Source: Eubacteriales bacterium mix99 (GTDB taxonomy: Bacteria; Bacillota; Clostridia; Caldicoprobacterales; DTU083). Taken from it: a stretch of 64,000 nt of DNA. The stretch is taken from assembly GCA_038396605.1 (NCBI GenBank), contig CP121690.1, positions 1,644,500-1,708,499 of the forward strand. The letters run 5' to 3'. A program made the position numbers and the translations under genes. Shown in pieces: positions 1,963 through 38,276 of this stretch. Below the pieces are notes generated by a model. The model was not told where the DNA came from. It searched no databases and worked only from the letters and a program-made list of their open reading frames with translations. How positions within the stretch are numbered: position 1 is the stretch's first letter; every line of letters starts with the position of its first letter.

Positions 1963-1993
1963 TTGACGTGGGAACCTTCCCACAGTATATAGT
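1963..1993 (+). promoter_or_regulatory. Promoter with embedded operator palindrome (operon 1)
   Basis: -35 TTGACG (1963-1968) and -10 TATATA (1986-1991) are 17 bp apart, with TATAGT (1988-1993) in an overlapping register. Between them lies the inverted repeat GTGGGAACCTTCCCAC (1968-1983). The same palindrome sits at the same place in the promoter at 7240-7270. A protein bound here would block RNA polymerase. The LacI-type regulator encoded at 11221-12204 is the natural candidate. Confidence 0.75.
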
Positions 1994-2231: not shown

Positions 2232-3170
2232 ATGCATTACATGGGTTTTGATATTGGCGGGACTTCCATTAAATATGGAGTTTTGACAGGTACCGGAGAG
2301 ATTGTTTTGAGAGATTCCTTTCCAACGCCGGAAAATGAGGAGCAAATTCTTCATCAGATGGAACAGGCATTTTTCCTTTGCCGGAAGCAAGTATCGGATA
2401 TTGCCGGTATCGGTATCTCTTCTCCGGGCCAGATGGCAGAGGATGGTACATTGATTGTGGCGGGCGCGATTCATTCCCTGTATGGAGTGAATTTAAAGAA
2501 AGGACTGGAAAAGAAAGCGGCGATTCCCGTTGTGATCGAAAATGATGCCAATTGTGCAGCGATTGCCGAGCAATGGATTGGCAATGCCCGGGACTGTAAG
2601 AATTACATCTGCGTGGTATTGGGTACCGGGGTTGGCGGGGGAGTTGTCCTGAATAATCATCTGTATAAAGGGAGTCATGGCCTTTCAGGAGAGTTTGGCT
2701 TTTCCATTATTGACGGGGTTCCGGAAACCGGGAATATCGAAGATGCCACATTGAATTATAAGGATGCAGTCGTGCTGGGACTGTACAATCAATATAACCT
2801 GACACGGAAAGCATTGGGACTGCCAATGGATGAAACCATTGACGCACGGCAAATCATTGCTTTAAACAATGCGGATGACCCGGTTGCAAAGAAGGTACTG
2901 CACAAATACTATGTAGATCTGTCCACCTTGTTCATCAATATTATCAGCTTCTTTGATCCGGATAAGATTATAGTCGGTGGAGGGATCAGCAGTAATTTCC
3001 AGTTTATAAAGGAACTGAATGAAACCTTTGAAGAAATGTTTGCCCGGCATGAGAGCCTGGCAAACATTGGCCGCGACAAAATGGCAAAGATCGTTCCAGC
3101 CAAACTGTCGAATGACGCAGGACTGACCGGAGCAGCCTTTTTAATTCATCAAAAACTACAGAATAAATAA
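2232..3170 (+). CDS. ROK-family sugar kinase
   Basis: ROK proteins are ATP-dependent sugar kinases (glucose, fructose, N-acetyl sugars) or regulators. This 312-residue protein has no N-terminal DNA-binding domain, so kinase is the likely role. The phosphate-binding motif DIGGTSIKYG (residues 7-16), the catalytic aspartate D105 in VIENDANCAA and the ROK signature GTGVGGGVVL to GLSGEFG (131-156) are present. The usual zinc site CxCGxxGC that follows HxxGEfGH is absent: the sequence runs EFGFSIIDGVPETGN instead. ATG 2232 is chosen because AGGAAAGAAGG ends at 2224, seven bases away; GTG 2226 is too close. It is the first gene of a four-gene run with a DUF7916-like protein, an acetyltransferase and a DUF4838 glycosidase, so its substrate is probably the sugar released by the latter. 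Confidence 0.85.
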   Translation: MHYMGFDIGGTSIKYGVLTGTGEIVLRDSFPTPENEEQILHQMEQAFFLCRKQVSDIAGIGISSPGQMAEDGTLIVAGAIHSLYGVNLKKGLEKKAAIPVVIENDANCAAIAEQWIGNARDCKNYICVVLGTGVGGGVVLNNHLYKGSHGLSGEFGFSIIDGVPETGNIEDATLNYKDAVVLGLYNQYNLTRKALGLPMDETIDARQIIALNNADDPVAKKVLHKYYVDLSTLFINIISFFDPDKIIVGGGISSNFQFIKELNETFEEMFARHESLANIGRDKMAKIVPAKLSNDAGLTGAAFLIHQKLQNK

Positions 3171-3182
3171 AGGGGTTTTTTT

Positions 3183-4079
3183 ATGGTACGACGTTTCATC
3201 AGCGCCAGTGCAAGTGAAATTGCAGCGATGCAGGCGCAGGAGTTAAAACAATCAATTAAAGCAAGTGAAGGGAGAGTCATTGTTTCTGAAAATGTCTGTT
3301 CCGTGCCAACGCTAACCGATGTAACCAATTCGGAAGTGGCTGTGGCTTATGGAGCGGATATGATTTTGCTGAATGCGTTTGATGCATTGCATCCCTATAT
3401 TGAAGGAATAGAAAAAGATGTAGAAAATCCGATTGCCGTACTGAAGCGCTATATTGGCCGCCCGGTGGGGGTGAATCTGGAACCAGTGGATCCGGGCAGT
3501 ACGCTTTTGAGTGAAAAAGAAGAAATACTGGAAGGACGCATCTCCTCGGTTTCCACATTTGAAGCCTGTGAGAAGCTGGGAGTGGATTTTATTTGCCTGA
3601 CCGGAAATCCCGGTACCGGCGTAACAAATCGGGAAATTGCGAAAGCCGTCCGGGTCGCCAAACAACATTTTTCAGGCTTGATTATCGCCGGTAAAATGCA
3701 TTCTGCCGGATCCGATGAACCCGTTGTGACCATGGAAGTAGTGGAAAGCTATGCGGAAGCCGGTGCGAATGTTCTTTTGCTTCCTTCCGTGGGAACCATT
3801 CAGGGGTTCACACAGGAAAATCTGATGGAAGCCGTGCGATTGGCAAAAAAGCACGACCTGCTGACGATGTCCGCCATCGGTACCAGTCAGGAAGGAGCGC
3901 GTGTGGAGACGATCCGGCAAATGGCCATTGCAAATAAAATCTGTGGTGTGGATATGCAACATATTGGGGATGCGGGATTTGCCGGAGTTGCCCTGCCTGA
4001 GAATATTTATGAAATGTCCATTGCCATACGTGGGATTCGTCACACGATCAGTCGTATTTCCCGTTCGATCAATCGTTAG
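3183..4079 (+). CDS. DUF7916-like TIM-barrel protein
   Basis: 298 residues. The pattern GADMILLNAFD, GRPVGVNLEPVDPG, GVDFICLTGNPGTGVTNREI and GANVLLLPSVGTIQG looks like a phosphate-binding TIM barrel. I associate it with the DUF7916 family, older members of which were labelled HAD-like without good reason. No experimental function is known to me. The gene starts 12 bp after the ROK kinase, with AAAGGGG before ATG 3183, so the two are co-transcribed. By context it acts on the phosphorylated sugar made by the kinase, perhaps as an aldolase, epimerase or phosphatase. That is inference from position only; I see no diagnostic catalytic residues. Confidence 0.6.
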   Translation: MVRRFISASASEIAAMQAQELKQSIKASEGRVIVSENVCSVPTLTDVTNSEVAVAYGADMILLNAFDALHPYIEGIEKDVENPIAVLKRYIGRPVGVNLEPVDPGSTLLSEKEEILEGRISSVSTFEACEKLGVDFICLTGNPGTGVTNREIAKAVRVAKQHFSGLIIAGKMHSAGSDEPVVTMEVVESYAEAGANVLLLPSVGTIQGFTQENLMEAVRLAKKHDLLTMSAIGTSQEGARVETIRQMAIANKICGVDMQHIGDAGFAGVALPENIYEMSIAIRGIRHTISRISRSINR

Positions 4080-4101
4080 ACAGCAACCGTGAACTAGAAA
4101 T

Positions 4102-5292
4102 GTGGTGAATGAATTGGAGAAAATAAGAGAAATGGGCAGGGAATATTATTCCCAGATGTACGATTTGGCAAGTTATTCTTTTAATTTCGGGCAGAAGACC
4201 AATAAGGAAGTGGCAAAATTCAATGAGATTTCTGCCGGTTCCTGGAATTATGGCTATTTTGATGTTAAAACAGGGTGTTTGATGAGCCAGGTGATGGCGA
4301 CTCCCTTTGATGTAAACCTGCATGGCCAGGTGTATAATATGATTGGAATCGGATATGTATCCACCTATCCGGAATTTCGCGGACATGGTGCCATCAATCA
4401 GTTAATGACGAAAATTTTACAGGATGCCAATGCACGGGATGTGGATTTATCCTATCTGGCTCCTTTTTCCTATGATTTTTACGAAAAATATGGCTATCGG
4501 CTGGCTTTTCACCGGTTAAGATATAAGGTGAACAACGAGAAATTTCGCATTATGCCGACTTATGACGGAGTCATTGAACGGTGTGAATATGAAAAGATCA
4601 TTCCGGAGTTGCTCCGGATTTTCAATTCCATGCCACAAAATCAGAAAGGCGGCGTGATTCGCAGAAGATGGTGGCTGGATTATAAGTTTGGCAACAAGGA
4701 TATTCTGTTTGCGGTCTATCGAAATCCTGCCGGTGAAGTAGAAGGCTATATGGCTTATGAATTTGACGACGAAGTTTTTGTGATCAGGGATTTGGGCTTT
4801 TTGACTTATGAAGCGCTTTCTTCCCTTCTGCACTTTTGTCAAAGCCATGCGGGAACCTTTCGCGACTTCGTGTTCAGCATCGGTTATCATGGTACACTTT
4901 TTGACACAATGTCCAGGGATATCTTCAGCACACAGATGAGTATTTGTGCGGATATGATGGCCCGTATCATCAATATTCAGCGTTTTGTCTCCCATTATCC
5001 GTTCCGGCATGATTTTTTCTTTTCCTTCTATGTGACGGAAGACCGCTTTGCACCATGGAACACAGGCGGATATCAGGTTACCGTAAAGGATGGGAAAGCA
5101 AAAGTGGAAAGAGTGGAGCAGAAAGGTTGGGATATCACCGGAAATATCCAGGCGTATACCGAGCTTTTTATGGGCAGCAGAAAGCCTTCCGAGCTGTTAT
5201 TTGCCAAAAGAATTTCAGGAAACAGGGAAGTGGTTGAAGGGCTGGAGGACTGCATTCATACAGGACAGCCCATCCTGGAGGAATATTTTTAG
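4102..5292 (+). CDS. Eis-like GNAT N-acetyltransferase
   Basis: 396 residues with the layout of the Eis family: an N-terminal GNAT domain (about 1-150), a second GNAT-like domain and a C-terminal SCP2-like fold. The acetyl-CoA-binding segment is GYVSTYPEFRGHGAINQLM (R/Q-x-x-G-x-A type), followed by LAPFSYDFYEKYGYR, a hallmark of the family. Eis enzymes acetylate amines on aminoglycosides, peptides and proteins. Inside a sugar operon the substrate may instead be an amino sugar or glycan-derived amine. The start is uncertain: GTG 4102 or GTG 4105, both with a poor ribosome binding site. The gene lies 22 bp after the DUF7916-like gene and 60 bp before the glycosidase. Confidence 0.75.
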   Translation: MVNELEKIREMGREYYSQMYDLASYSFNFGQKTNKEVAKFNEISAGSWNYGYFDVKTGCLMSQVMATPFDVNLHGQVYNMIGIGYVSTYPEFRGHGAINQLMTKILQDANARDVDLSYLAPFSYDFYEKYGYRLAFHRLRYKVNNEKFRIMPTYDGVIERCEYEKIIPELLRIFNSMPQNQKGGVIRRRWWLDYKFGNKDILFAVYRNPAGEVEGYMAYEFDDEVFVIRDLGFLTYEALSSLLHFCQSHAGTFRDFVFSIGYHGTLFDTMSRDIFSTQMSICADMMARIINIQRFVSHYPFRHDFFFSFYVTEDRFAPWNTGGYQVTVKDGKAKVERVEQKGWDITGNIQAYTELFMGSRKPSELLFAKRISGNREVVEGLEDCIHTGQPILEEYF

Positions 5293-5352
5293 AAAAAAGA
5301 CAGATGGGGTTTTTGCGTAGAATTTTTCACCTGTTTCGGGGAGGGAAAAGAA

Positions 5353-7161
5353 ATGACAATTGTCGAAGAAAAGGCAAAGGAAGTTCTGGCAAAATATCTT
5401 TATCAGATGACCGGACAGAGCGGACATATCCGTTTTGTGATCAATCCGCATGCCTTTGCCGTGGCGGATCCGAAACTGGACGATGCCTACCGGGTGGCAG
5501 TTCATCATGGGAAAGGAACCATTCAGGCCAGCAATGCCCGTTCCCTGCTGCTGGCCGTTTATCATTTACTGCGTTCCTGCGGGTGCTCTTTTGTACGACC
5601 GGGGGAAGCAAATGAACGGGTTCCCCAATGTTCATTGGAAGATATCACCGCTTCTTTGGATGTTGTAGCAGGATATCGTTATCGTGGGATTTGTGTTGAA
5701 GGTTCCTGTAATCTGGAGGATACGCTGGGATTGCTGGAATGGATGCCAAAAGTTGGAATGAACAGTTATTTCATGCAGTTTCGCGAAGGGTATCAGTTTT
5801 TTGAACGATGGTACCGGAACGGAAGCAATCCGGCCCGTCAACCCTGGCATTTCGACCTGACCATTGAACGGACCATCCTGCCGCGAATTATTGCCTGTGT
5901 CAGGGAAAATGGCTTGAGTTATCAGGGGGCAGGCCATGGATTTACCTGTGAATGTTTTGGGGTGCCCGGTCTGGGATGGATGGAAATGGATGACTGGCCG
6001 GAAGAATATCAATATGCCCTTGCAATGCGTAACGGGGTACGGAATATGAGTTATCAGGTACCCTTGATCAGTGCACTATGTTACTCTAACGAGGAAGTGC
6101 AGGAAAAAGTAGTGGACAGTGCAGTGGATTATATCGCCGCCCATCCGGAGATGGATGTGGTTCATTTTTGGTTGGATGATGGAAACAACAACAAGTGTGA
6201 ATGCGAAAATTGTAAAGATACAAGAATTGCTGATTTTTATGTGGAAATGCTGAATCGCCTTGATGCCGGGTTGACAGCACGTGGACTGGACGTAAGAATT
6301 GTCTTTCTGGCTTATCATGAAACTTTGTGGCCACCGCAGAGGAATCGTTTGCATCATCCGGAGCGCTTTATTTTCATGTTTGCGCCAATACAGCGGTCCT
6401 TTCGTCAGTCCTTTCCGGATATAGCATCTGCTGGGAAGATGAAACCCTATTGCATGAATGACCAGCCGTTTCCGAAGACCAATCTGGAAGCTGTCAGTCA
6501 TCTAAAAGCCTGGAATCAGTATCTAAAGGGCAATCATTTTGATCTGAGGAATACTTTTGAGTTTGATTATTATCTGAATAATTTTGGGGATTGCGGACAG
6601 TTTGTACAGGCGCGAATCATTTACGAAGATGTTCACCGCCTGAAGCAAAACGGCCTGAACGGAATCGTCAACTGCCAGATGCAGCGCCTCTTCGGGCATG
6701 CCGCATTGCCAATGTATGTTCTGGCCGCAGCACTGCTGGAACCCGAACGTTCCTTCGAAGCAATTGTTGATGAGTTTTTTGAAGGTGCTTTTGGGAGGGA
6801 CTTCAGCAAGATGCGCACCTATTGGCAGGAACTCACTGATAGCTCTGCTTTTATGCGGGAAGACCAGCATGCGTCCAAAAAAGAAGTGAATGACTTTTCT
6901 CAGCTGCTGGAAGCCCGACCGGCGATTGCCTGTGAGGATTTCGTCACAGCAAGCTGTTTAAGATCCTTTGATGTTCAACTGAAGATTTATAGAGGCCTGA
7001 ATGAGTTGGAAAAAGCCGCAATGGAAGGAAATCAAACGATCCTGGGCAAACGATCCGGACAACTGCTGGTTTTCATTGCAGCCTATGAAAACGAATGCTC
7101 TTTGGACTACGATCTTTACTATGTTCGCCAGTATTTGGCCAAACGCTTCGGTTACAAATAA
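5353..7161 (+). CDS. DUF4838 glycosidase-like protein (GH20/GH67-type architecture)
   Basis: 602 residues. The N-terminal part (about 1-90, ending QASNARSLLLAVYHLLRSCG) resembles the small alpha/beta domain found before the barrel in GH20 and GH67 enzymes. The remainder is a DUF4838-type barrel with VHFWLDDGNNNKCECENCKD at about 274-293, a cysteine cluster common in this family. Members are predicted glycoside hydrolases found in polysaccharide loci; substrates are unproved. There is no signal peptide, so it should act in the cytoplasm on imported oligosaccharide. GGGGAGGG precedes ATG 5353. It is the last gene of operon 1, and the transporter operon follows 160 bp later behind its own copy of the same promoter. 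Confidence 0.75.
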   Translation: MTIVEEKAKEVLAKYLYQMTGQSGHIRFVINPHAFAVADPKLDDAYRVAVHHGKGTIQASNARSLLLAVYHLLRSCGCSFVRPGEANERVPQCSLEDITASLDVVAGYRYRGICVEGSCNLEDTLGLLEWMPKVGMNSYFMQFREGYQFFERWYRNGSNPARQPWHFDLTIERTILPRIIACVRENGLSYQGAGHGFTCECFGVPGLGWMEMDDWPEEYQYALAMRNGVRNMSYQVPLISALCYSNEEVQEKVVDSAVDYIAAHPEMDVVHFWLDDGNNNKCECENCKDTRIADFYVEMLNRLDAGLTARGLDVRIVFLAYHETLWPPQRNRLHHPERFIFMFAPIQRSFRQSFPDIASAGKMKPYCMNDQPFPKTNLEAVSHLKAWNQYLKGNHFDLRNTFEFDYYLNNFGDCGQFVQARIIYEDVHRLKQNGLNGIVNCQMQRLFGHAALPMYVLAAALLEPERSFEAIVDEFFEGAFGRDFSKMRTYWQELTDSSAFMREDQHASKKEVNDFSQLLEARPAIACEDFVTASCLRSFDVQLKIYRGLNELEKAAMEGNQTILGKRSGQLLVFIAAYENECSLDYDLYYVRQYLAKRFGYK

Positions 7162-7239: not shown

Positions 7240-7270
7240 TTGACATGGGAACCTTCCCACAATGTATAGT
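7240..7270 (+). promoter_or_regulatory. Promoter with the same embedded palindrome (operon 2)
   Basis: -35 TTGACA (7240-7245), then TGGGAACCTTCCCA (7246-7259), then -10 TGTATA (7263-7268, 17-bp spacing) or TATAGT (7265-7270). It matches the promoter at 1963-1993 nearly base for base, which is strong evidence for co-regulation of the catabolic and transport operons by one repressor. Confidence 0.8.
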
Positions 7271-7323
7271 AAGGTTGTGAGAGGATAAACCGTTTTCCAG
7301 CAGATGAGAATTGGGGGAAAAGC

Positions 7324-8265
7324 ATGAATCAGCAGACTATAAAAAGACAAAAAAATAAAAGTGATCAGCATCGGTTTGGAAATCAACTGGGCTTACAATC
7401 AATGATCCTTCCTGGCGCAATTTTTATGATTATCTTCAATTTTCTACCTATCTATGGAATTGCAATTGCATTCAAGCAATATACTGTAATTGATGATTTT
7501 CAAAGCGCTCCATGGGTGGGATGGGAAAATTTTAAAATCATCGTAGATGATAAGTTTTTTTGGCATTCTGTTTATAACACTTTGGGAATCAGTTTTTTAA
7601 AACTTTTATTAGGTTTTATTCCATCCATTATCCTGGCAATTATGATTTATGAGTTAAGACAGGGACCCTTTAAGAGAATCACGCAGACAATCTCTTATAT
7701 GCCACATTTTCTTTCCTGGATTGTTTTGGGAGGAATGCTGATAAATTGGTTGTCGACCAATGGGCTGTTGAATACAGTTCTTTCTGGATTAGGCTTTTCC
7801 ATTAAGCATCAGAACTATCTTTTGAGTGAGGACAAATATTGGTGGATCGCTGTGTTATCCGATATCTGGAAGGATGCCGGATGGGGCACAATCCTGTATC
7901 TGGCTTCTATGGCTAAAATAGATCCCACTTATTATGAGGCTGCAAAGATAGATGGAGCGACACGACTGCAGCAAATCATCAAGATTACGATACCGATGAT
8001 CAGGAATATCATCAGCCTGAATCTGATTTTAACCGTCAGTGGTCTACTGGGATCCAATCTGGACCAGACATTGGTCCTGATGAATTCACAAAACCGGGAT
8101 CGGGCAGAGGTTATTAACTCTTATGTATATCGGATGGGAATGAGTCAGGGGGATTTCTCCTATGCTACAGCAGTTGGTCTGGGTGTCTCTGTCGTTTCGC
8201 TTATTCTCCTGATCGTATCAAATGCGGTGACAAAGAAAATGAACGACAATACATCCGTTTTGTAG
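7324..8265 (+). CDS. ABC sugar transporter permease (LplB-type, CUT1)
   Basis: 313 residues, six predicted membrane segments beginning at LPGAIFMIIFNFLPIYGIAIAF. The EAA loop that contacts the ATPase is YYEAAKIDGATRLQQIIKIT near residue 217. The N-terminus and the FKQYTVIDDFQSAPWVGWENF segment match the LplB/YtcP branch that imports oligosaccharides with a lipoprotein receptor. It forms a set with the second permease and the binding protein directly downstream. No ATPase gene is present, so a shared MsmX/MsmK-type ATPase encoded elsewhere is expected. The gene is notably AT-rich compared with the helicase and htpG genes. Confidence 0.92.
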   Translation: MNQQTIKRQKNKSDQHRFGNQLGLQSMILPGAIFMIIFNFLPIYGIAIAFKQYTVIDDFQSAPWVGWENFKIIVDDKFFWHSVYNTLGISFLKLLLGFIPSIILAIMIYELRQGPFKRITQTISYMPHFLSWIVLGGMLINWLSTNGLLNTVLSGLGFSIKHQNYLLSEDKYWWIAVLSDIWKDAGWGTILYLASMAKIDPTYYEAAKIDGATRLQQIIKITIPMIRNIISLNLILTVSGLLGSNLDQTLVLMNSQNRDRAEVINSYVYRMGMSQGDFSYATAVGLGVSVVSLILLIVSNAVTKKMNDNTSVL

Positions 8266-8285: not shown

Positions 8286-9170
8286 ATGGAAGGAAAAGTA
8301 ATGAGGCAGGATAGAAATAGCAAGGCCTTTGATTTTGTCAACGCCATTTTGCTTATTCTTTTTTTGATTGTGATTATAGTGCCATTGTGGAATGTTGTTG
8401 TTTCTTCATTTGCCTCCGGACAGGCATTGGCTAAAGGGGATTTCGTTTTTCTCCCTTCTGAGTGGTCATTGGAGAATTATCGTGCTGTTTTTCGGGATGA
8501 AACAGTGCTACAGGCTTTCTTGGTGTCAGTAGCCGTGACATTGATTGGTGTTGTTTTCCACGTATTCTTTTGTGCAATGGTGGCTTACCCGATGAGCAAA
8601 CCATATTTGTTCGGGCGTAAGGTCTATTCCGCCATGGGGATTATTACTATGTTTTTTTCCGGTGGAATGATTCCCACGTATTTACTGATTAAACAACTGG
8701 GCTTACTCAATAATTTCTGGGTGTATATCATTCCGGGAATGCTCAGTTATTACGATGCAATTATCATCATGAATTTTTTTCGTTCCGTACCTTCCTCCCT
8801 GGAAGAGTCCGCAATGATCGATGGTGCGGGTTTCTGGCGTGTCTTTCTGCAGATTTATTTGCCTCTGTCCAAACCGGCACTGGCAACAATTGCTTTATTC
8901 CACGGGGTCGATCAATGGAACGACTTTATGACAGCAAAACTTTATATTACGGATAAGAATCTCTATACGCTGCAAATGAAATTGTATGAAATTATTGTTC
9001 GCTCCCAAACGGAGGGTATGCAGAAGATAGGGACAGTGGTTCACCGGAGTACAACCAAAGGTGTGCAGTTGGCCACCATTGTTATTACAACTGTGCCAAT
9101 TTTAGTTATGTATCCGTTGCTGCAAAAGTATTTTATCGGCGGCATGATGGTTGGAGCCATCAAAGAATAG
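8286..9170 (+). CDS. ABC sugar transporter permease (LplC-type, CUT1)
   Basis: 294 residues, six predicted membrane segments (first at FVNAILLILFLIVIIVPLWN). The EAA loop is SLEESAMIDGAGFWRVFLQI at about 169-188, and the C-terminus YPLLQKYFIGGMMVGAIKE is typical of LplC/YtcP permeases. It lies 20 bp after the first permease and 43 bp before the binding lipoprotein. It pairs with the LplB-type protein to form the channel. Start ATG 8286; ATG 8304 is a possible alternative. Confidence 0.92.
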   Translation: MEGKVMRQDRNSKAFDFVNAILLILFLIVIIVPLWNVVVSSFASGQALAKGDFVFLPSEWSLENYRAVFRDETVLQAFLVSVAVTLIGVVFHVFFCAMVAYPMSKPYLFGRKVYSAMGIITMFFSGGMIPTYLLIKQLGLLNNFWVYIIPGMLSYYDAIIIMNFFRSVPSSLEESAMIDGAGFWRVFLQIYLPLSKPALATIALFHGVDQWNDFMTAKLYITDKNLYTLQMKLYEIIVRSQTEGMQKIGTVVHRSTTKGVQLATIVITTVPILVMYPLLQKYFIGGMMVGAIKE

Positions 9171-9213: not shown

Positions 9214-10854
9214 ATGAAAAAAAGCAGGTTCAGCACATTCCTTATATTTCTTTGCACAGCCAGTTTGTTGCTGCCTCTGGGGGCCTGCGGCAGCAAGGGA
9301 AAAGAAAGTGGGAAAGGAGTAAAAGATGTTGATATTTCGAATCGCTATGAACTGGATGAGACAAAGCCAGCCTGGCAACTGGACAAAAAAGAGGAAAAGA
9401 CAGAACTTACCTGGTATGTCAACGCCGATTGGTGGGATACGGACTGGGGCAAAGATATTGTAACCCAGCAGATAGAAGAGGATTTGAACCTGAAAATCAA
9501 ATTCAGTAAAGGGGACGATACGAATCTGAATACGATGTTTGCAGGGGAGGACATGACAGATTTCGTGACAATTTTCGATGAAGCTTCAAAGGTAGCCAAG
9601 GATGCTAAAAACTGGGCATATTCCCTGAATGATCTGTCTAAAAAATACGATCCATACTGGAACAAAGTAGCAGCCAGGGAAACAATGGAATGGTTGAAGC
9701 TTGATGACGGGAAAACATATGGTTATCCAAGTTATTCAAATACTTCAGAAGATTATAAGAATAATCTGATCCCTGCCAACTCTGCTTTTTTTATCCGCCA
9801 GGATGTATATAAGGCAATCGGCGAACCGAAACTTGGTACGCAGCAAGAATTTATCGACGCCATGAGCAAGATCAGGGAAAAGTTTCCCGATTTGATTCCT
9901 TTCGGATTCCGTCCCTTTGAAGACAATGGAACCGGCTCGTTGGGAGAAGAATTTCAGGACTTTATTGGTGTTCCACTGGAAACTGAGGATGGAAAATTTT
10001 ATAATCGCAACCTGGATGAAGATTACTTAAGCTGGCTGGGTACATTCCGTAAGATTTATAATAACGGAGGAATCAGTGACGACAGCTTTGCAGATGATCC
10101 CAATGCGTTTGAAGAAAAGGTAAAGTCCGGGCAATACGCTACGATTCAGGCTTCCGGTACGGCTCAGATGGGTGGGGCATTGCAAACATGGCTGGTATCC
10201 AATCCGGATGCGCAATACATTGCAATTGATGGTCCTCAAAGCACGAAAGGAAATGAGCCGAAATTAAACCAAACAGGAATTTCAGGCTGGATGGTTAACT
10301 ATATCAGCAAATCCTGTAAGGATCCGGCAAAGGCTATGCAATTTTTTACCTATCTGCAAAGTGAGTACGGAGGAATTTTGACAAATTATGGAATCGAAGG
10401 GAAGACATTCGAATATAATGCAGATCATAAGATAAAATTGTTGCCGGAAGTAGAGGAGATCAAAGATAACGATCCGGAAAGATATCAAAAGGAATATCGC
10501 CTGAGCGAATTTATTTTCTTTGGTCACGATAAGTTTCTGAACTATGCTTCGGAAGATACTCAACCCAAAGCCCTGGAACAGCAGAAGGAATGGGGCAAAG
10601 GGAAACTCTATCCGCACTTCATTCTTGAAAATACGGAACCGGATCCCGGCACGGCAGATGCCCGGAACGCTTCAAACATTCAGGTCGAATGGAGTAAGAC
10701 ACTGATTAATCTGGTTCGTTCGAAATCGGAAAAGCAATTTAATGCGAACCTTGATAGCTATAAGAAATTCCTGGACAGCAATGGATGGGAAGATATCGAG
10801 AAAGTAAAGAATGAAAAAATAAAACAAAATAAGGAAAAATTGGGCATTGATTAG
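9214..10854 (+). CDS. Extracellular sugar-binding lipoprotein (LplA-type)
   Basis: 546 residues. A lipoprotein signal peptide MKKSRFSTFLIFLCTASLLL is followed by the lipobox LGAC with Cys25, so the mature protein is anchored outside the membrane. The rest has the long cluster-1 solute-binding fold seen with LplB/LplC permeases (DWWDTDWGKDIVTQQIEEDLN; aromatic-rich ligand region). ATG 9214 is chosen for AAGAAAGGCGG at 9196-9206 and because the signal peptide starts there. It delivers the oligosaccharide to the two permeases upstream. No clear terminator follows; the stop codon runs straight into an in-frame remnant of another gene. Confidence 0.92.
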   Translation: MKKSRFSTFLIFLCTASLLLPLGACGSKGKESGKGVKDVDISNRYELDETKPAWQLDKKEEKTELTWYVNADWWDTDWGKDIVTQQIEEDLNLKIKFSKGDDTNLNTMFAGEDMTDFVTIFDEASKVAKDAKNWAYSLNDLSKKYDPYWNKVAARETMEWLKLDDGKTYGYPSYSNTSEDYKNNLIPANSAFFIRQDVYKAIGEPKLGTQQEFIDAMSKIREKFPDLIPFGFRPFEDNGTGSLGEEFQDFIGVPLETEDGKFYNRNLDEDYLSWLGTFRKIYNNGGISDDSFADDPNAFEEKVKSGQYATIQASGTAQMGGALQTWLVSNPDAQYIAIDGPQSTKGNEPKLNQTGISGWMVNYISKSCKDPAKAMQFFTYLQSEYGGILTNYGIEGKTFEYNADHKIKLLPEVEEIKDNDPERYQKEYRLSEFIFFGHDKFLNYASEDTQPKALEQQKEWGKGKLYPHFILENTEPDPGTADARNASNIQVEWSKTLINLVRSKSEKQFNANLDSYKKFLDSNGWEDIEKVKNEKIKQNKEKLGID

Positions 10855-11220: not shown

Positions 11221-12204
11221 TCATGTCGTCGTTTGACGCGGCAGTAACCGGACTGTGATCGGAAAATAGGGAAGGTTTGTCCCGTTCAGTTGATTATAAA
11301 GATATCGAAAGGAGTTTTGCGCCTGTCTATCAAGTGAATAGTCAATGGTGGACATATTCATAAGCTGTCCAATGGTACTGTTGTCACAACCAATGACATT
11401 GACATCTTCCGGAATGCGATAATTCATGTAACGTAATTCGGAAATGAATTCCCCTGCCAGAAAATCCTCATGAAAAATAATGGCGTCCGGACGTTCTTCC
11501 TTGGAGGAAGCTGTCCATAACCGGGCAATTTCCCTTCCCCCTATTTGTTGATACTTACTGATCAAGAGCCATTCCTTGTTTAATACCAAATCTGGATGCT
11601 GATGATAGAAAAATTTGATCGCCTTCAGGCGCCTTTGGGTATTGTTGTTCTCCTGATAGCCGATGACATGGGCGATTTTTGTCTTGTGGCAGTGATGGTA
11701 CAGATAATTCAGAGAGTGCAGATAACATTCATAATGATCCACACTGCAAGAATAGATTTCCGGACAATTTAGTTTGTGCCAGGTGGCAATAGGCCCATAT
11801 TTGCAATAAGGCTTGATGGTCCCCCAATCGTTGGATTTAATCAGAATAAAAACGCCATCCAGTTTTTTCTGTTTCAACAAATCAAGACATTCGATCTCTT
11901 TTTCCTGATTGCCATCTGTCAGATAAGAAGTAACAAAATAGCCGTATTTGAGCGCTTCATTCAGAAAATGATTCAGAAAAGTTCCGAATTGGTCGAAATA
12001 ACCATTGGAAATAAAACCAATGTTTTTGGTGGAGCCTGAACGGAAATCACGTGCAATCTGGTTTGGAATATAGCCCAGTTCCTGAATCGCCTGTTCAATT
12101 TTCTGCCCGCTTTTTTTACTGACATAACCTTTTCCAGTAATGTATCTGGAAACAGTTGATTTTGATAACTCACACTGCTTTGCTACTTTTTCAATTGTAA
12201 TCAT
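11221..12204 (-). CDS. LacI-family transcriptional regulator
   Basis: 327 residues. The N-terminal helix-turn-helix reads MITIEKVAKQCELSKSTVSR, with the hinge-helix region ending LGYIPNQIARDFRSGSTKNI, then a periplasmic-binding-protein-like sensor domain. A strong AGGAGGAG precedes ATG 12204. LacI proteins bind palindromes, and the only repeated palindrome found nearby is TGGGAACCTTCCCA, inside both promoters at 1963 and 7240. The gene lies at the end of the transporter operon on the opposite strand. I infer that it represses operons 1 and 2 and is released by a breakdown product. The hinge-region match to that exact operator cannot be proved by eye. Confidence 0.9.
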   Translation of the reverse strand: MITIEKVAKQCELSKSTVSRYITGKGYVSKKSGQKIEQAIQELGYIPNQIARDFRSGSTKNIGFISNGYFDQFGTFLNHFLNEALKYGYFVTSYLTDGNQEKEIECLDLLKQKKLDGVFILIKSNDWGTIKPYCKYGPIATWHKLNCPEIYSCSVDHYECYLHSLNYLYHHCHKTKIAHVIGYQENNNTQRRLKAIKFFYHQHPDLVLNKEWLLISKYQQIGGREIARLWTASSKEERPDAIIFHEDFLAGEFISELRYMNYRIPEDVNVIGCDNSTIGQLMNMSTIDYSLDRQAQNSFRYLYNQLNGTNLPYFPITVRLLPRQTTT

Positions 12205-24266: not shown

Positions 24267-25502
24267 ATGACGGGGGTATTACCGACAAAGCAACAGCTTT
24301 CCTTCCTGGATTGGGAAATGGGTGCGTTTTTTCACTTCGGCATCCGCACATTTTATGAGGGGCATCGGGACTGGGACGGGAAAGAAATGGATCTGGATGC
24401 CTTTCGTCCGGCCAAACTGGACTGCGACAGCTGGATTCGTACGATAAAGGAAGCCGGGATGGCCTATGCCATCCTGGTTTGCAAGCATCACGACGGATTT
24501 GCCAACTGGCCTTCGAAGTATACGGATTATTCTGTGGCCAACACCCCATGGAAGGATGGACAGGGTGATGTGGTACGGGAGTTTGTAGACGCCTGCCGCA
24601 AGTACGACATTCGGATCGGGCTTTACTATTCTCCCGCGGAGGCGGGGTATCAGAAACGGTCGCCAAAGGAGCATGACGACTATTTTATCAACCAGATCAG
24701 CGAATTGCTGACCAACTACGGCAGGATCGATTACCTGTGGTTTGACGGCTGCGGATCAGAAGGGCATGAGTATGACAGAAAAAGGATTATACGCACGATC
24801 CGCGACCTTCAGCCCGAAATCCTGATCTTCAATATGTGGGATCCCGATACGAGATGGGTGGGCAATGAAGCGGGCGTGGCAAATGTGACCAACAGCAATG
24901 TAGTATCCAGTGTGGACTTTTCCGTCCTCACCGAGAGCGGGGATGATCTGGATACAGAACGGTTTTTACCTGCGGAATGTGATTTCATGATGCGGGACCG
25001 GAATTGGTTTTACAGTGAATATGATGTTCATACGGTGAAAAGTGTGGAAGAGCTGATTTCCCTATATTATTATTCTGTCGGAAACGGAGCGAATTTCCTT
25101 ATTAACATTGGACCGGACCGCAGAGGTCTTTTGCCGGAGGTGGACGCCAGGCGGCTGCTGGAGTTCGGTCAGGAAATCAGGAGACGTTTTTCTCAGCCGG
25201 TTCCAACCACCTGGAAGAGTATAGAAGATGGCATTTGCATCAGGCTGGAGGAAGAACAACTTATCAATCATGTTATATTGCGGGAAAATTTGACGGCAGG
25301 GGAAAACATACAGGCGTTCCGTGTTTCTGTCAGGTCCGGTTTGATCCAGCGTCCTGTCTGTGTCCATATGGGGGCTGCCATCGGGCATAAAAGGATTATT
25401 ACCTTTCCTGCCATCCGGGCAGCGGAGGTTCGGATCGAAGTTACAGAGGCAAAGGGGACGTTTCACTTTTTGTCCCCTCAGGTCTTTTATATCCGGCAAT
25501 GA
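24267..25502 (+). CDS. GH29-family alpha-L-fucosidase-like glycosidase (divergent)
   Basis: 411 residues. GH29 enzymes remove alpha-linked fucose with retention. The catalytic barrel includes CKHHDGFANW (72-81) and the nucleophile aspartate D160 in YLWFDG. The early family motif HWG is HFG here (FFHFGI, 22-27), and the following region is short, so this belongs to a divergent branch. GNGANFLINIGPDRRG matches the conserved barrel end. There is no signal peptide, so the substrate is probably an imported oligosaccharide. CGGGGGATG precedes ATG 24267. A second GH29 gene follows after 95 bp, probably in the same transcript. Confidence 0.82.
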   Translation: MTGVLPTKQQLSFLDWEMGAFFHFGIRTFYEGHRDWDGKEMDLDAFRPAKLDCDSWIRTIKEAGMAYAILVCKHHDGFANWPSKYTDYSVANTPWKDGQGDVVREFVDACRKYDIRIGLYYSPAEAGYQKRSPKEHDDYFINQISELLTNYGRIDYLWFDGCGSEGHEYDRKRIIRTIRDLQPEILIFNMWDPDTRWVGNEAGVANVTNSNVVSSVDFSVLTESGDDLDTERFLPAECDFMMRDRNWFYSEYDVHTVKSVEELISLYYYSVGNGANFLINIGPDRRGLLPEVDARRLLEFGQEIRRRFSQPVPTTWKSIEDGICIRLEEEQLINHVILRENLTAGENIQAFRVSVRSGLIQRPVCVHMGAAIGHKRIITFPAIRAAEVRIEVTEAKGTFHFLSPQVFYIRQ

Positions 25503-25597
25503 TGGCAGGAAACGGGATGGAAAAGGGCGAATCCATGAGATAATAAGCAAAATATATCTGGGAACATATCCAGTAATGGAAAGGAGCAAATGGAATT

Positions 25598-26911
25598 ATG
25601 TCAAGCTATACAACGAGGAAAACGCCCGGAGACACGGAATGGTTTGTTCATGACCGGTTTGGTATGTTTATCCACTGGGGGCTGTATTCCATGCCGGCCC
25701 GGCATGAATGGGTGAAGTCCAGGGAAGAAATACCGGAAGAAAAGTACGATAAATATTTCAAATATTTCAATCCGGATTTGTTTGATCCGAAGGACTGGGC
25801 CCGAAAAGCAAAAGAAGCAGGAATGAAATATGCCGTTCTCACCACAAAGCATCATGAGGGCTTCTGCATGTTCGATTCAAAGTATACAGACTATAAGTGC
25901 ACAAATACTCCTGCCGGCCGGGACATTGTCCGGGAGTATGTGGATGCTTTTCGGGCAGAAGGATTGCGTATTGGCTTCTATTATTCCCTGATTGACTGGC
26001 ATCATCCCGATTTTCCCATCGATCCCATTCATCCGCGGCGTGATGATAAGGATGCCTATGAGCAGAGTAAGGGCCGGGATATGCACAAATATGCGGAATA
26101 TATGCGCAATCAGGTGGAGGAGCTTTTAACGAACTATGGGAAGATCGATATTCTGTGGTTTGATTTCTCCTATCCGGACCGAACCATGAAGGATCAGCCA
26201 TGGATGAAAGGCAAGGGCAGGGAAGACTGGGAAGCGGATAAACTGATTGCTCTGGCCAGAAAGCTGCAGCCTGGCATTATCATTGACAACCGCACCGGGA
26301 TCGAACAGGACCTCTGGACACCGGAGCAATATCAGCCGCAGGAATGGGTCCGCCATGAGGATACCGGGGAGCGGGTGACCTGGGAGGCCTGTCAGACATT
26401 TTCCGGTTCCTGGGGGTATTATCGGGATGAAATGTCCTGGAAGACGCCGGATGTGTTGATACAGATGCTGATCAATACGGTTTCCCGGGGCGGGAATCTG
26501 TTGATGAACGTGGGCCCGACGTCCAGAGGCTATATCGATTACCGGGCCGAAAAGGCACTTAAGGTATATGCGGACTGGATGAAGGTCAACAGTCGCTCCA
26601 TTTATGGGTGCACCATGGCCGAACCGGAGTTTGTGGAGCCAAAGGGCTGCCGGTATACGCAAAGCGGGGATGGGAAACGCCTGTACATCCATCTGATGGA
26701 ATATCCCTATGCTTTTCTGGAAATACCGGGGATGGCCGGAAAAGTGGATTATGCGCAGTTTTTGCATGATGGAAGCGAAATAACCTTTACGGAAAAAACC
26801 AGCGATCATTTCAGTGAAGGCAGAATGCAATCGAAGGATTTGCTGGTCTTTAACATACCGAAGATCAAACCTCCGATTCTCGTGCCGGTGATCGAAGTCT
26901 TCCTGAAATAG
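25598..26911 (+). CDS. GH29-family alpha-L-fucosidase
   Basis: 437 residues with a canonical GH29 layout: RFGMFIHWGLYSMPARHEW (20-38), TTKHHEGFCMF (82-92), the catalytic nucleophile D189 in DILWFDF, and the barrel-end segment RGGNLLMNVGPTSRG. A C-terminal beta-sandwich follows. There is no signal peptide. AAAGGAGC precedes ATG 25598. The tandem pairing with the divergent GH29 enzyme upstream suggests two fucosyl linkages or subsites on one glycan. The alpha-mannosidase at 28289 lies in the same neighbourhood, which would fit host N-glycan fragments. Confidence 0.92.
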   Translation: MSSYTTRKTPGDTEWFVHDRFGMFIHWGLYSMPARHEWVKSREEIPEEKYDKYFKYFNPDLFDPKDWARKAKEAGMKYAVLTTKHHEGFCMFDSKYTDYKCTNTPAGRDIVREYVDAFRAEGLRIGFYYSLIDWHHPDFPIDPIHPRRDDKDAYEQSKGRDMHKYAEYMRNQVEELLTNYGKIDILWFDFSYPDRTMKDQPWMKGKGREDWEADKLIALARKLQPGIIIDNRTGIEQDLWTPEQYQPQEWVRHEDTGERVTWEACQTFSGSWGYYRDEMSWKTPDVLIQMLINTVSRGGNLLMNVGPTSRGYIDYRAEKALKVYADWMKVNSRSIYGCTMAEPEFVEPKGCRYTQSGDGKRLYIHLMEYPYAFLEIPGMAGKVDYAQFLHDGSEITFTEKTSDHFSEGRMQSKDLLVFNIPKIKPPILVPVIEVFLK

Positions 26912-27172
26912 AAGATTGGAGATGAAGCTGGCTTTTCTCTGATGATGCATGCGGATGATGCACGCGCTTATTTTGAGGAAAAGATAAGTATATTAACTCT
27001 ATAACAGAAGGACCGCATGAAAATTCTGTTTGTTGAAATAAAAGCAGAAAAGTAAATTACAAAGAGTACCAAAACGTAGATCAATGATCCTGTCAGGAAA
27101 TCTGTTATTGCGCTTTTTCGCTTTGACATCTGTGCTTTTTAGGAAGGGCATCGGGGCTGGGATGACATTGGG

Positions 27173-27204
27173 AATTGGAAATCATAGGATTATGATTTCC
27201 AATT
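27173..27204 (-). terminator. Terminator hairpin of the HAD-IIA gene
   Basis: AATTGGAAATCATA pairs perfectly with TATGATTTCCAATT around a four-base GGAT loop. The HAD gene stop codon lies at the loop-stem border. No strong T-run follows on the minus strand. The geometry equals that of the hairpin at 15813. Confidence 0.65.
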
Positions 27205-28050
27205 CTGCTTCACTGCAGATTGTTTCCGCTTTTGAGTTCCTGGCTGTTGAAGCTGCTGCAGTGGCTGGAACAAGTTTGCTAAATCCACCAATCGGTCCAC
27301 AATGATATCCGGTTTCACATCGGAAGAATCCACATCCGGAAGTTTCGTTTCGCCTGTCAGGACCAGGACACTGGTGGCCCCATTTTTTGCGCCGATGGCG
27401 ATGTCGGTGTACAGACGGTCTCCTACGAATACCACTTCCTCCTTTGTGCAATTCAGATTATCCAGAATATAGTCCATGGTTTCCTTATAGGGTTTCCCGA
27501 AATATTTTGGAAGAATGCCGGTGGATTGGGTAATAAAGGCGCATATGGCACCGCAGTCCGGGATAAAACCGTCTTCCGTCGGACAGTTGTTGTCCGGATG
27601 AGTGGCAAGAAAAGGAACTCCGTTTCGAATCAAAGTACAGGCTTTTGAGAGCTTTTCATAGGTCAGAGTTGTATCAAATCCGGCCACGACCGCATCCGGA
27701 TCCTTCGCTGTCAAAAGAATGCCACTGTCCTGAAAATCCTCTTCCAGCAGCGGGGTCCCCAGCAGATAAACCTTTGGATGAGCCCATCGCTTTTTCAGGT
27801 GATAAGCGGTCACCATCCCGGAGGTAATGATCTGGCTTTTTGTAACGTTGCATCCCATTTTCGCCAGCTTTTGCACATAGACATCCTGATTTTTGGACGA
27901 GTTGTTCGTATAGAAAAGAAAATGCTTTCCCTGCTCTTTCACCTTCTCCAGAAATTCAAGGGAACCTTCCAGCAGTTGGTTTCCCAGATAGAAAGTACCA
28001 TCCATATCCAATATGAAATATTTCTTGTTGTCCTTCAATTTTTTACACAT
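27190..28050 (-). CDS. HAD-IIA family phosphatase (NagD/PNPase-like)
   Basis: 286 residues. HAD motif I is LDMDGTFY, with nucleophile D15 and acid/base D17. Motif II is in LFYTNNSSK, the HAD-IIA cap follows (FDTTLTYEKLSKACTLIRNG), and motif IV is in VGDRLYTDIAIG. NagD-type enzymes dephosphorylate nucleotides and sugar phosphates, so a housekeeping or sugar-phosphate detoxifying role is likely. GGAGATATATA precedes ATG 28050. It is divergent from the GH38 mannosidase gene. Confidence 0.9.
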   Translation of the reverse strand: MCKKLKDNKKYFILDMDGTFYLGNQLLEGSLEFLEKVKEQGKHFLFYTNNSSKNQDVYVQKLAKMGCNVTKSQIITSGMVTAYHLKKRWAHPKVYLLGTPLLEEDFQDSGILLTAKDPDAVVAGFDTTLTYEKLSKACTLIRNGVPFLATHPDNNCPTEDGFIPDCGAICAFITQSTGILPKYFGKPYKETMDYILDNLNCTKEEVVFVGDRLYTDIAIGAKNGATSVLVLTGETKLPDVDSSDVKPDIIVDRLVDLANLFQPLQQLQQPGTQKRKQSAVKQNWKS

Positions 28051-28288
28051 TATATATCTCCTATCCCTGGGGAGCTGTCTTATTCATACTTTCCGGCCGA
28101 ACAAAATGAGTATAACACAGAAAGAGCAGATTCAGCAATTTTTAGCATCTTTCGATTCCGGATACAAGAAAGGATTTCTTTTTTTCGTAAAGAATAATAT
28201 AATAGGGTCAGGAACTGGTTATAAAAATAACAGCAAAGTAAAAAAGATATCGGAGTGACCCCATGCAAAGGAGTGTGATTACATAACG

Positions 28289-31009
28289 ATGAGTAATATT
28301 ATGGACAAACTGAAGTTTGTGGAAGAAAAGGCAGACCATTATTGGGCGAAGAGGATCACATCCCAATTGGAATATGCCATTCAGCTGAATAAGGTATTGG
28401 AGCATAAATATGATGAGGACCTGACAGATTCCCTGGATTTTCTATCCGGTGAAATTGCCCGGGAAGGCACCATAACGGAAACAGCGGCGAAGGCAGCGGA
28501 AAAGAAGCTGGATCTGTTGTCGGAGGATGCGAAGAAATACCGGATGTTGTGTGTTGCCCATGCCCATATGGATATGAACTGGATGTGGCGGTGGGAGGAG
28601 ACGGTCACCATTGTTCTGAATACGTTCCGTACCATGCTGGACCTGATGGAGGAATACCCCCAGTTTAAATTTTCCCAATCCCAGGCTTCCGTCTATCGGA
28701 TTGTGGAAAAGTATGACCCCGCCATGTTGGAGGAAATCCGGAAAAGGATTCACGAGGGCCGCTGGGAAGTTACGGCCTCCACATGGGTGGAACATGACAA
28801 GAATATGGCCAATGGGGAAAGCATGGCCCGTCATATCCTTTATACAAAGCGTACCCTGTCCAAACTACTGGACATCGACCCGGACAGCCTGAACCTGGAT
28901 TTTGAGCCGGATACCTTCGGGCACAGCCTGAACGTACCGGAGATTCTTGCAAGGGGGGGAGTCCGGTATTATTATCATTGCCGGGGGTATGACGGCTATC
29001 AGCTTTACCGCTGGAAAGCGCCTTCCCGCAAATCGGTCATTGCTTATCGGGAACCAACATGGTATATGGGCGCCATCGAGCCTTCCATGGCTTATTATGT
29101 GCCGGGATTCTGCAGCGAACACCATATGGACACCATGCTGAAGGTTTACGGCGTGGGTGATCATGGCGGCGGCCCTACCCGAAGGGATATTGAGCGGATT
29201 ATGGATATGGCGGACTGGCCGGTTTTTCCAAGGATGGAGTTTGGAACCTATGGGGAGTACTTTGCATTGGTGGAGGAGATCAGCGATCAGCTGCCGGTGG
29301 TAACCGGTGAACTGAATCCCATATTTACCGGCTGCTATACCAGTCAGTCCCGAATCAAAAAAGGAAATGCCATTCTGCAGGATAAGCTGAATGAAACCGA
29401 AGCTTTTGCATCGGCTGCTTCGTTATCTGTGGGAGCGGCCTACCCCACCCGGCAGATGGAAGAGGCGTGGGAAAAGGTATTGTTCAATCAATTCCATGAT
29501 ATCCTGCCCGGATCGTGCACGGCGGATGCCAGGGAATATGCCATGGGTCTTTATCAGCAGGCGGCTGCACGGACAGATACAGAGACCAGCCGTGCCCTTC
29601 GCAGCATCGCATCCCATATTGATACTTCTGCATGGGCTTCCAAAGGGATTTATCACCTCTTTAATCCCTCCCTTTATGCCAGAACGGAGCTGGTTGAGGT
29701 GACGGTTTGGGACTGGGAAGGAAAGAAGGAAAATATACAGTTCCTGGATTCCGATGGCAAGGAGGTTCCTTATCAGCTGCTTTCCGAACAGGACATTCCC
29801 TATTGGGGCCATCATTGTTTCAAGACACTGATTTCTGCACATGTTCCGGCAATGGGGTATGCGACATATGTTCTTACGGAGAAAAAAGCGGAGGATGTTT
29901 TGCCCCCATTTCCAGTGCAGCCCAGAGTTGAGAGACGGAACAGCTACACTCTGGAAAATGAACGCCTGAAAGTGGTGTTTGATTCCCGCACCGGTGCCAT
30001 CGTTTCCATGACGGACAAGGCCAACCGGCACGAAATTATTGATCCCAACCAGCCTGCCGGTATTTTTAGGCTGATTGAGGAGGAAGACAGCCCGGGCATG
30101 ACCTCGTGGGTAGTGGGAAATTACCGCAGGGTTACAAATATCAACGAAGGCGGTGTGAAGTTCACTTCGCTTCAGAACGGGGAAGGCCTGCTCCGGCAGT
30201 CCCTGTCCTATACCGCATCCTTTGGGGAGTCCACGCTTCGGGTCCGCATTTACCTGGATCGGGACAGCTCAAGGCTTGGCTTTGAAGTAGAGTGCGATTT
30301 CCGGGAATTGGGAAATTCCGAGAAGGGGGTTCCGCAGCTGAATTTCCATATGCCGGTAGGGTATGATTGCCGTGCTTATCGGTATGATATTCCCTCCGGG
30401 ACCATTGAACGGGATGAAACCGATATGGATGTTCCCGCCAGCAGCTGGGCGGCAGCCATGCCAAAAGATTCGGGACGAAAGGCACTTACCCTGATTGCCG
30501 GCACCAAACACGGATTCCGCTGTGTGAAAAATTCCATCAGTCTCAGCCTGATCCGCGCCTCCTATGACCCGGATCCTTATCCGGAGGTAGGCCATCATGC
30601 GTTTGGTTTCTTTGCTTCCCTGCCCAATATTACCTCCAACCGGGAATTGATTGAGGAAGCTTATAACTGCAGTCACCCGATTTGTGTGGTATCCGGCAGG
30701 CCGCATAAAGGCGAGCTTCTGCCCCGCGGCAGCTTTATGAAGATACAGGAAGGCGGCATTGCCGTCCAGGCAATTAAAATGCCGGAAGACAGCACGGATA
30801 CCAATAGTCTGATACTGAGAGGATTTGAGACGGAAGGCAGAAGGACCAGAGTGGAAATGTCCTTCAGTCGAAACGTTGCGAAGGCATATTGTGTGGATAT
30901 CAATGAAAAACCGGTGGAGTCGGAGCTGGATGTCCGGATTTCAGAAAATCATGTATCCTTTGGCGTGGAACCCTATAAGGTGTTTACGTTCCGGGTGGAG
31001 TTTCTGTAA
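28289..31009 (+). CDS. GH38-family alpha-mannosidase
   Basis: 906 residues. GH38 enzymes are zinc-dependent retaining alpha-mannosidases. The zinc ligands H93 and D95 lie in VAHAHMDMNWMW, the nucleophile D208 is in DFEPDTFGHS, and a third histidine region is FNQFHDILPGS. The central three-helix bundle and the large C-terminal beta domains follow. The N-terminus has the helical extension of the bacterial cytoplasmic branch (SLDFLSGEIAREG). There is no signal peptide. AAAGGAG lies 15 bases before ATG 28289, a little far, so the start is only moderately certain. Expected substrates are manno-oligosaccharides from N-glycans. Confidence 0.93.
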   Translation: MSNIMDKLKFVEEKADHYWAKRITSQLEYAIQLNKVLEHKYDEDLTDSLDFLSGEIAREGTITETAAKAAEKKLDLLSEDAKKYRMLCVAHAHMDMNWMWRWEETVTIVLNTFRTMLDLMEEYPQFKFSQSQASVYRIVEKYDPAMLEEIRKRIHEGRWEVTASTWVEHDKNMANGESMARHILYTKRTLSKLLDIDPDSLNLDFEPDTFGHSLNVPEILARGGVRYYYHCRGYDGYQLYRWKAPSRKSVIAYREPTWYMGAIEPSMAYYVPGFCSEHHMDTMLKVYGVGDHGGGPTRRDIERIMDMADWPVFPRMEFGTYGEYFALVEEISDQLPVVTGELNPIFTGCYTSQSRIKKGNAILQDKLNETEAFASAASLSVGAAYPTRQMEEAWEKVLFNQFHDILPGSCTADAREYAMGLYQQAAARTDTETSRALRSIASHIDTSAWASKGIYHLFNPSLYARTELVEVTVWDWEGKKENIQFLDSDGKEVPYQLLSEQDIPYWGHHCFKTLISAHVPAMGYATYVLTEKKAEDVLPPFPVQPRVERRNSYTLENERLKVVFDSRTGAIVSMTDKANRHEIIDPNQPAGIFRLIEEEDSPGMTSWVVGNYRRVTNINEGGVKFTSLQNGEGLLRQSLSYTASFGESTLRVRIYLDRDSSRLGFEVECDFRELGNSEKGVPQLNFHMPVGYDCRAYRYDIPSGTIERDETDMDVPASSWAAAMPKDSGRKALTLIAGTKHGFRCVKNSISLSLIRASYDPDPYPEVGHHAFGFFASLPNITSNRELIEEAYNCSHPICVVSGRPHKGELLPRGSFMKIQEGGIAVQAIKMPEDSTDTNSLILRGFETEGRRTRVEMSFSRNVAKAYCVDINEKPVESELDVRISENHVSFGVEPYKVFTFRVEFL

Positions 31010-31101
31010 AGGCGGATGAAGCTAAGAACAAAAGAACGACAACAGAACAGAAAGAACAACGACAGGATAGAAAGAACAACAAATGAAAAATGGATAAAAA
31101 T

Positions 31102-31135
31102 AAAAGAGCCTCTCAAATTGGGAGGCTCTTTTATG
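31102..31135 (+). terminator. Terminator after the GH38 gene
   Basis: AAAAGAGCCTC pairs with GAGGCTCTTTT around TCAAATTGG. The run of A before and T after the stem allows function in both directions. Confidence 0.85.
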
Positions 31136-33388: not shown

Positions 33389-33541
33389 GTACATGGGATG
33401 GCGGCACTTTGGGATGAAACCGCCGTGAAAGAGGAATGTGGGAAGGAAAGCCGTCGAATCCAATAAAATAGAAATGGCTTTTAATTCGTAAGGATTTAAG
33501 TAAAAAGAAAAACACAATATAAAAATGGGAGGGTATCAAAA

Positions 33542-35122: not shown

Positions 35123-35188
35123 GCTGAGTATCCTAAGCATAAAGGTGTATATTAATAGATATGGAACAGGAATGAAAGGGGCGATAAT

Positions 35189-37412: not shown

Positions 37413-37448
37413 AATTGGAAAGAGAACGGGGAAGTGAGGTGACATAAA

Positions 37449-38210: not shown

Positions 38211-38276
38211 GGAAGACGAGCCAAATCATTATCGCAGGGTTCCGGGCAGGTGGGCCAGACAAGGAAGGTTGGGGAA

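Follow-up and report, generated by a model that had tools for sequence, protein, structure and literature searches.

DUF7916 in a four-gene operon of Eubacteriales bacterium mix99: a possible step on N-acetylhexosamine 6-phosphate in amino-sugar salvage

Introduction

The use of N-acetylglucosamine (GlcNAc) is among the best mapped of sugar pathways, yet DUF7916, a conserved protein family without an assigned role, recurs beside nagE, at times with nagA or nagB, across about 15 families of Bacillota. What such a protein does is the question raised by a 64,000-nucleotide stretch of Eubacteriales bacterium mix99 (contig CP121690.1, positions 1,644,500 to 1,708,499; hereafter the window), in which genes for a ROK kinase, a DUF7916 TIM barrel, an Eis-like GNAT acetyltransferase and a DUF4838 glycosidase run head to tail on one strand (2232-7161). 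The answer that we tentatively prefer is that DUF7916 is a new enzyme of GlcNAc catabolism with a step on N-acetylhexosamine (HexNAc) 6-phosphate, and that in the window it has been rewired to a route made up of an ATP-binding cassette (ABC) importer, the ROK kinase, the GNAT and the DUF4838 enzyme. If true, this step would have been overlooked because NagA and NagB seemed sufficient. What makes the operon valuable is the strong functional link that it opened up for DUF7916, whose context narrows the substrate to amino-sugar phosphates and allows a simple in vitro test; the window also illustrates how an enzyme of this type can shift from uptake by the phosphotransferase system (PTS) to uptake by an ABC importer plus kinase.

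Genomic context of DUF7916

The strongest evidence on the role of DUF7916, and the decisive one, is its genomic context. We compared 112 DUF7916 loci: those of the 80 nearest relatives, all in named genomes, and further ones from an even draw of genomes across phylum and class; the family was found in 39 of 398 Bacillota species sampled, about a tenth. Among the 31 loci from evenly drawn Bacillota genomes, DUF7916 has a PTS gene in the same orientation and no more than 3 kb away in 23, and in 20, from about 15 family codes, a NagE-type EIIBC at that distance. All eight of the NagE-type permeases tested scored above the curated TIGR01998 cut-off for GlcNAc PTS, and EIIA-glc and a BglG antiterminator are frequent in these loci. 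Two DUF7916 neighbours exceed the nagA cut-off, and nagA or nagB adjoins DUF7916 at L154, L163, L166 and L169. The first of these (L154, 4043-12452) is one run of a GntR-like regulator and nagE-x-nagA-nagB-DUF7916-HPr-EIIA-EI, with HPr, EI and the regulator assigned by eye from the sequence.

NagA lies above its cut-off in 40 of 40 carrier genomes tested and NagB is matched in 38 of 40, a genome-level co-occurrence of little weight as only carriers were counted; the weight lies on adjacency. Since almost every carrier has both enzymes, DUF7916 is not their replacement, and the idea that it stands in for a missing NagB was dropped.

In a second branch of the family (Streptococcus, Enterococcus, Staphylococcus and others) DUF7916 is accompanied by a lactose/cellobiose-family permease and NagC-like ROK regulators. 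The IIC proteins of this branch score on the cellobiose equivalog and lower on the diacetylchitobiose one, mostly under the cut-off. The common factor of DUF7916 loci is a sugar entering as its 6-phosphate, which in the first branch is GlcNAc 6-phosphate, and we consider it rather probable that DUF7916 acts on an amino-sugar phosphate. The exceptions, with ABC context, are the window locus and the Enterococcus/Vagococcus loci L046, L050 and L052.

In these last three loci an ABC importer, a DUF624 gene and an AraC-type regulator lie directly 5' of DUF7916, with a GH1 glycosidase one to three genes further on; their permeases are 32-38% identical to those of the window. The DUF7916 of locus L161 (genome G489) is highly divergent (branch 2.7) and shares an ABC operon with a GH4-family enzyme, so that an ABC context is found a second time, independently. 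Five loci (L056, L068, L083, L100 and L112) combine DUF7916 and a cellobiose-type PTS with M42- and/or M20-family peptidase/deacylase genes, so that N-acylated or peptide-bearing sugars could be substrates in the cellobiose-type branch. Apparent domain fusions at L153 and L184 were rejected as spurious long or overlapping open reading frames (ORFs).

The operon, its importer and a shared operator

The preliminary description of this DNA, made from the letters alone, had placed the four genes in one tight operon, co-regulated with a CUT1 importer. Coordinates, strand, Pfam families and intergenic gaps of 12, 22 and 60 bp agree with the first of these claims. The features are as follows, with the basis of each in brackets.

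1963..1993, + strand: promoter of the four-gene operon, with a TTGACG box, the inverted repeat TGGGAACCTTCCCA (1969-1982) and TATATA/TATAGT (sequence)
2232..3170, + strand: ROK sugar kinase (Pfam, NCBIfam, PDB relatives)
3183..4079, + strand: DUF7916 protein (Pfam, alignment, AlphaFold2)
4102..5292, + strand: Eis-like GNAT acetyltransferase (Pfam, motifs)
5353..7161, + strand: DUF4838 (GH163-type) glycosidase, cytoplasmic (Pfam, structure model)
7240..7274, + strand: promoter of the importer operon, with the identical inverted repeat at 7246-7259 (sequence)
7324..8265, + strand: CUT1 ABC permease 1 (Pfam and NCBIfam)
8286..9170, + strand: CUT1 ABC permease 2 (Pfam and NCBIfam)
9214..10854, + strand: lipoprotein solute-binding protein, lipobox LPLGAC (position and lipobox; start codon read from the sequence)
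11221..12204, - strand: LacI-family regulator, convergent to the importer operon (Pfam and NCBIfam)

The CUT1 importer consists of two BPD_transp_1 permeases and a lipoprotein binding protein, the latter called from its position and lipobox; a Pfam search gave no match for it. The importer operon contains no ATPase gene. CUT1 importers commonly share one ATPase encoded elsewhere.

The ROK gene is preceded by TTGACG-TGGGAACCTTCCCA-CAG-TATATAGT and the first permease gene by TTGACA-TGGGAACCTTCCCA-CAATG-TATAGT. The exact 14-mer TGGGAACCTTCCCA has two sites in the whole 3.13-Mb genome, both between the promoter boxes of these operons, while TGGGAANNTTCCCA has one additional exact genomic site, with a different centre. 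The plain reading is that the repeat is a putative repressor site in both promoters, and these are strong signs that the two operons are co-regulated, as had been proposed. The LacI-family regulator is a weak candidate for the reader of this common operator, because the repeat lacks the central CG that LacI sites usually have. Matches to the operator were also seen in Streptococcus sanguinis loci.

Conservation of the four-gene set

That the four genes form a conserved pathway, as first supposed, was not borne out. A survey of gene order, set beforehand as the refuting test, found this order in this genome only, and conserved co-occurrence of the four families was rejected within the genomes and loci sampled. 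Among the 112 loci, only that of the window combines DUF7916 with a ROK kinase in its operon, and only there does a DUF4838 gene adjoin DUF7916; a single further ROK kinase-like gene occurs within six genes of DUF7916, at L075. Relatives of the DUF4838 protein elsewhere are 31-41% identical and rare (4 of 398 genomes at E 1e-60), with none of the other three families adjoining. Genome G616, of the same genus, lacks both DUF7916 and DUF4838. The Eis-like GNAT, on the other hand, adjoins DUF7916 in six Enterococcus loci (GNAT identity 33-36%), and in the DUF7916 tree the window protein falls in a 13-member clade (support 100/96) with 12 Enterococcus proteins, six of them GNAT-adjoined. The DUF7916-GNAT pair has a history, then, and the four-gene combination does not: the set is an assembly of one genome, although the operon is real and its co-regulation strongly indicated.

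Given this distribution, the genes might have been brought together recently and not form one pathway at all: an Enterococcus-like donor would have supplied DUF7916 and the GNAT, and the latter would detoxify an amine instead of serving catabolism. The sampled genomes of the same genus, family and order lack DUF7916, no other sampled genome has the combination, the end of an IS21-type transposase-like ORF lies about 50 bp 5' of the operon promoter, and Eis2, a relative of the GNAT, is an aminoglycoside acetyltransferase. The tight spacing and the operator common with the importer argue for a single regulated function, however, and DUF7916-GNAT adjacency recurs in the six Enterococcus loci; we regard a recent assembly without a common pathway as unlikely and retain an amino-sugar route as the preferred reading.

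The transposase-like ORF (505-1908, - strand) lies beside a truncated serine-hydrolase-like ORF (167-523), both recognised by eye, which points to an insertion, or to DNA gained horizontally, at this edge.

The DUF7916 protein

The barrel had been described as DUF7916-like; a match to PF25509 over the full length of the model (1-296; E 6.6e-125, 416.5 bits against a cut-off of 27) makes it a true DUF7916. That the family has no known reaction also holds: no paper naming DUF7916 was found in the literature searched. The AlphaFold2 model is a confident TIM barrel (predicted local distance difference test, pLDDT, 91.5). In the model the near-invariant residues E36, N64, D67, N98, E100, N142, K171, H173, T205, S235, Q236, H260 and D263 are placed just after strands, at their C-terminal ends, in the manner of an enzyme active site.

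Only generic TIM barrels are among the fold matches listed (MetH/BHMT at Z of about 18, MfnB, PdxJ, TrpA); several, namely TrpA, PdxJ, ThiG and IGPS, are phosphate-binding barrels. NanE is absent from the matches listed, an absence that excludes nothing. By sequence profile no family tested came nearer than NanE (PDB profile E 0.005), which is also the sole other named Pfam enzyme family touched by several DUF7916 members; 8 of 24 members touch its model weakly (best E 1.7e-4), and for the window protein no match to NanE (PF04131) is listed up to E 5. A NanE-like isomerisation is our leading guess for the reaction. As a reaction class, isomerisation or epimerisation of HexNAc 6-phosphate with a carboxylate in place of lysine chemistry is possible but still doubtful.

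Kinase, acetyltransferase and glycosidase

The kinase matches Pfam ROK (E 4e-53) and has the motifs DIGGT, ENDAN and HGLSGE; the CxCG zinc motif is absent. Its closest solved structure is the Listeria beta-glucoside kinase (4htl), followed by NanK/NagK, and in NCBIfam it lies under all equivalog cut-offs (NagK 131 of 380 bits, NanK 84.6 of 450, BglK 161 of 550). With BglK as its top relative in both NCBIfam and PDB, the kinase could instead phosphorylate an imported beta-glucoside or neutral disaccharide at O6', mimicking a cellobiose-type PTS, with DUF7916 acting on the 6-phospho-disaccharide or its product. The linkage of the window's DUF7916 branch to cellobiose-family PTS, GH1 and DUF3284 would suit such a pathway, but the BglK score is far under the cut-off, the operon has no 6-phospho-glycosidase, and neither the GNAT nor the linkage of the wider family to GlcNAc PTS, nagA and nagB would be explained. 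We therefore judge a disaccharide pathway improbable beside one for amino sugars.

The GNAT carries the Eis domain set, Acetyltransf_9 (PF13527), Acetyltransf_17 (PF17668) and SCP2_2 (PF13530), all above the Pfam cut-off, together with a CoA motif RGHGAI, the YGY motif in FYEKYGY and an EEYF end with C-terminal Phe. In Mycobacterium Eis an active-site Tyr and the C-terminal Phe carboxylate are used; YGY and the C-terminal Phe are retained in the six Enterococcus relatives. The window protein is a full-length three-domain match to the Enterococcus GNAT structures 2hv2 and 2i00 and to Eis, including these two features, although 2hv2 and 2i00 are structural-genomics entries without a stated substrate and Eis2 acts on drugs.

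The glycosidase matches DUF4838 (PF16126; E 9e-17, 61.7 bits against a cut-off of 26.6, profile 69-316), with an N-terminal GH20b-like domain followed by the barrel and no signal peptide seen. D276 is invariant and located after strand 4, presumably at the site of the acid in related families.

The model of this protein (pLDDT 76) matches GH115, GH84, GH20, GH138 and GH89 enzymes at Z 15-18. Its top VIA match is GH115 (Z 17.8, 464 aligned, root mean square deviation 4.0), the best sequence-profile PDB match is GH67 (E 0.002), and no GH163 structure is among the sequence-profile PDB matches. The GH115 and GH67 matches would suit an intracellular glucuronidase in a pathway for uronic-acid glycans. 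GH84 and GH20 hexosaminidases nevertheless follow within about 1.6 Z units, a ROK kinase and a GNAT are ill-suited to uronate catabolism, and neither operon was seen to encode a uronate isomerase or reductase, which leaves a uronate pathway very unlikely. Because matches to both kinds of enzyme lie at Z 15-18, fold alone cannot separate hexosaminidase from glucuronidase. CAZy family GH163 is known in Pfam as DUF4838 (PMC9870897), and the characterised member is an endo-beta-N-acetylglucosaminidase that cuts GlcNAc-beta-1,2-Man in N-glycans (PMC9870897, PMC10154615).

A possible amino-sugar salvage route

The preliminary description had outlined import, cleavage, acetylation, phosphorylation and a barrel-catalysed step on an unusual sugar. 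The outline finds support, but 'unusual' is probably wrong: the substrate is likely an ordinary N-acetylated amino sugar because DUF7916 sits inside GlcNAc PTS/nagA/nagB operons and DUF4838 corresponds to GH163. The unit may, on balance tentatively, be an amino-sugar salvage operon built around DUF7916, for which we infer the following order of steps. The CUT1 importer, with its ATPase encoded elsewhere, would take up a short oligosaccharide containing amino sugar, from which the cytoplasmic DUF4838 enzyme would free (N-acetyl)hexosamine. The GNAT would N-acetylate any sugar with a free amine, and the ROK kinase would phosphorylate the sugar at O6, in place of the PTS permease of related loci. 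The resulting N-acetylhexosamine 6-phosphate would then be the substrate of DUF7916, whose product could be used by NagA and NagB, both encoded elsewhere in this genome; the most likely reaction would be a NanE-like acid/base isomerisation or epimerisation.

Several findings tell against this reading. The four-gene set was seen in one genome only; the window's branch of DUF7916 is tied to a cellobiose/chitobiose-type PTS and not to NagE; the kinase is closer to BglK than to NagK or NanK; and the likeness of the DUF4838 model is not to GH20/GH84/GH89 hexosaminidases alone but also to GH115/GH67 alpha-glucuronidases. The profile-profile similarity of DUF7916 to NanE is 75-90%, against 2-7% for TrpA, but set beside control phosphate barrels its 85-90% is no better than the 84-95% that these reach among themselves, and OMP decarboxylase scores 86% against one DUF7916 subset. 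Neither NanE signature motif (x-P-x-I-G-I-x-K, V-G-x-A-x-T-R, with the catalytic Lys on strand 3; PMC8482478) was found in DUF7916, where strand 3 reads RPVGVNLEP with an invariant Glu.

Comparison with known systems

DUF7916 shares with NanE, the N-acetylmannosamine-6-phosphate 2-epimerase (PMC8482478), a TIM barrel of the phosphate type, and differs in lacking the signature motifs and in having an invariant Glu (E100) and not Lys at the in-register strand-3 site. Membership in NanE was ruled out on these motifs, the profile similarity being equalled between control barrels.

Relatives of DUF7916 lie inside operons for GlcNAc PTS catabolism (NagE-NagA-NagB), and the window genome has NagA and NagB; in the window, however, an ABC importer with a ROK kinase serves for import, and DUF7916 comes in addition, as a protein that the textbook pathway does not include.

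For Clostridium acetobutylicum, Reith and Mayer are said to have described in 2011 a salvage of amino sugars and muropeptides by NagZ, the kinase MurK and the glucosamine/glucosaminide N-acetyltransferase GlmA, NagZ reportedly being a GH3 enzyme and the kinase of BadF type. An intracellular glycosidase, a sugar kinase and a glucosamine-acetylating GNAT are features in common with the window, whereas the glycosidase and the kinase belong to other families and DUF7916 is absent. The work is cited in PMC4680927 and PMC4974736, the former being the source for this organism as a precedent for N-acetylation of glucosamine in salvage.

The GH163 enzyme of Bacteroides thetaiotaomicron, which has the Pfam domain DUF4838 in common with the window enzyme, is at the cell surface and cuts N-glycan antennae (PMC10154615); the window enzyme is cytoplasmic and distant, and is likened to it by its domain.

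Other sugar loci in the genome

Host glycans would fit as the source of the sugar, because the window also has an island (24267-40801) with two alpha-L-fucosidases, a GH38 mannosidase, a second CUT1 importer and a BNR/sialidase-like protein; a flavin adenine dinucleotide (FAD) oxidoreductase, a DHDPS-family lyase and an IclR regulator complete it.

A second ROK kinase is encoded beside NanE and CUT1 permeases at L218 (8759-13374; genome 868.8-873.4 kb), a conventional locus in the same genome for salvage of sialic acid and N-acetylmannosamine.

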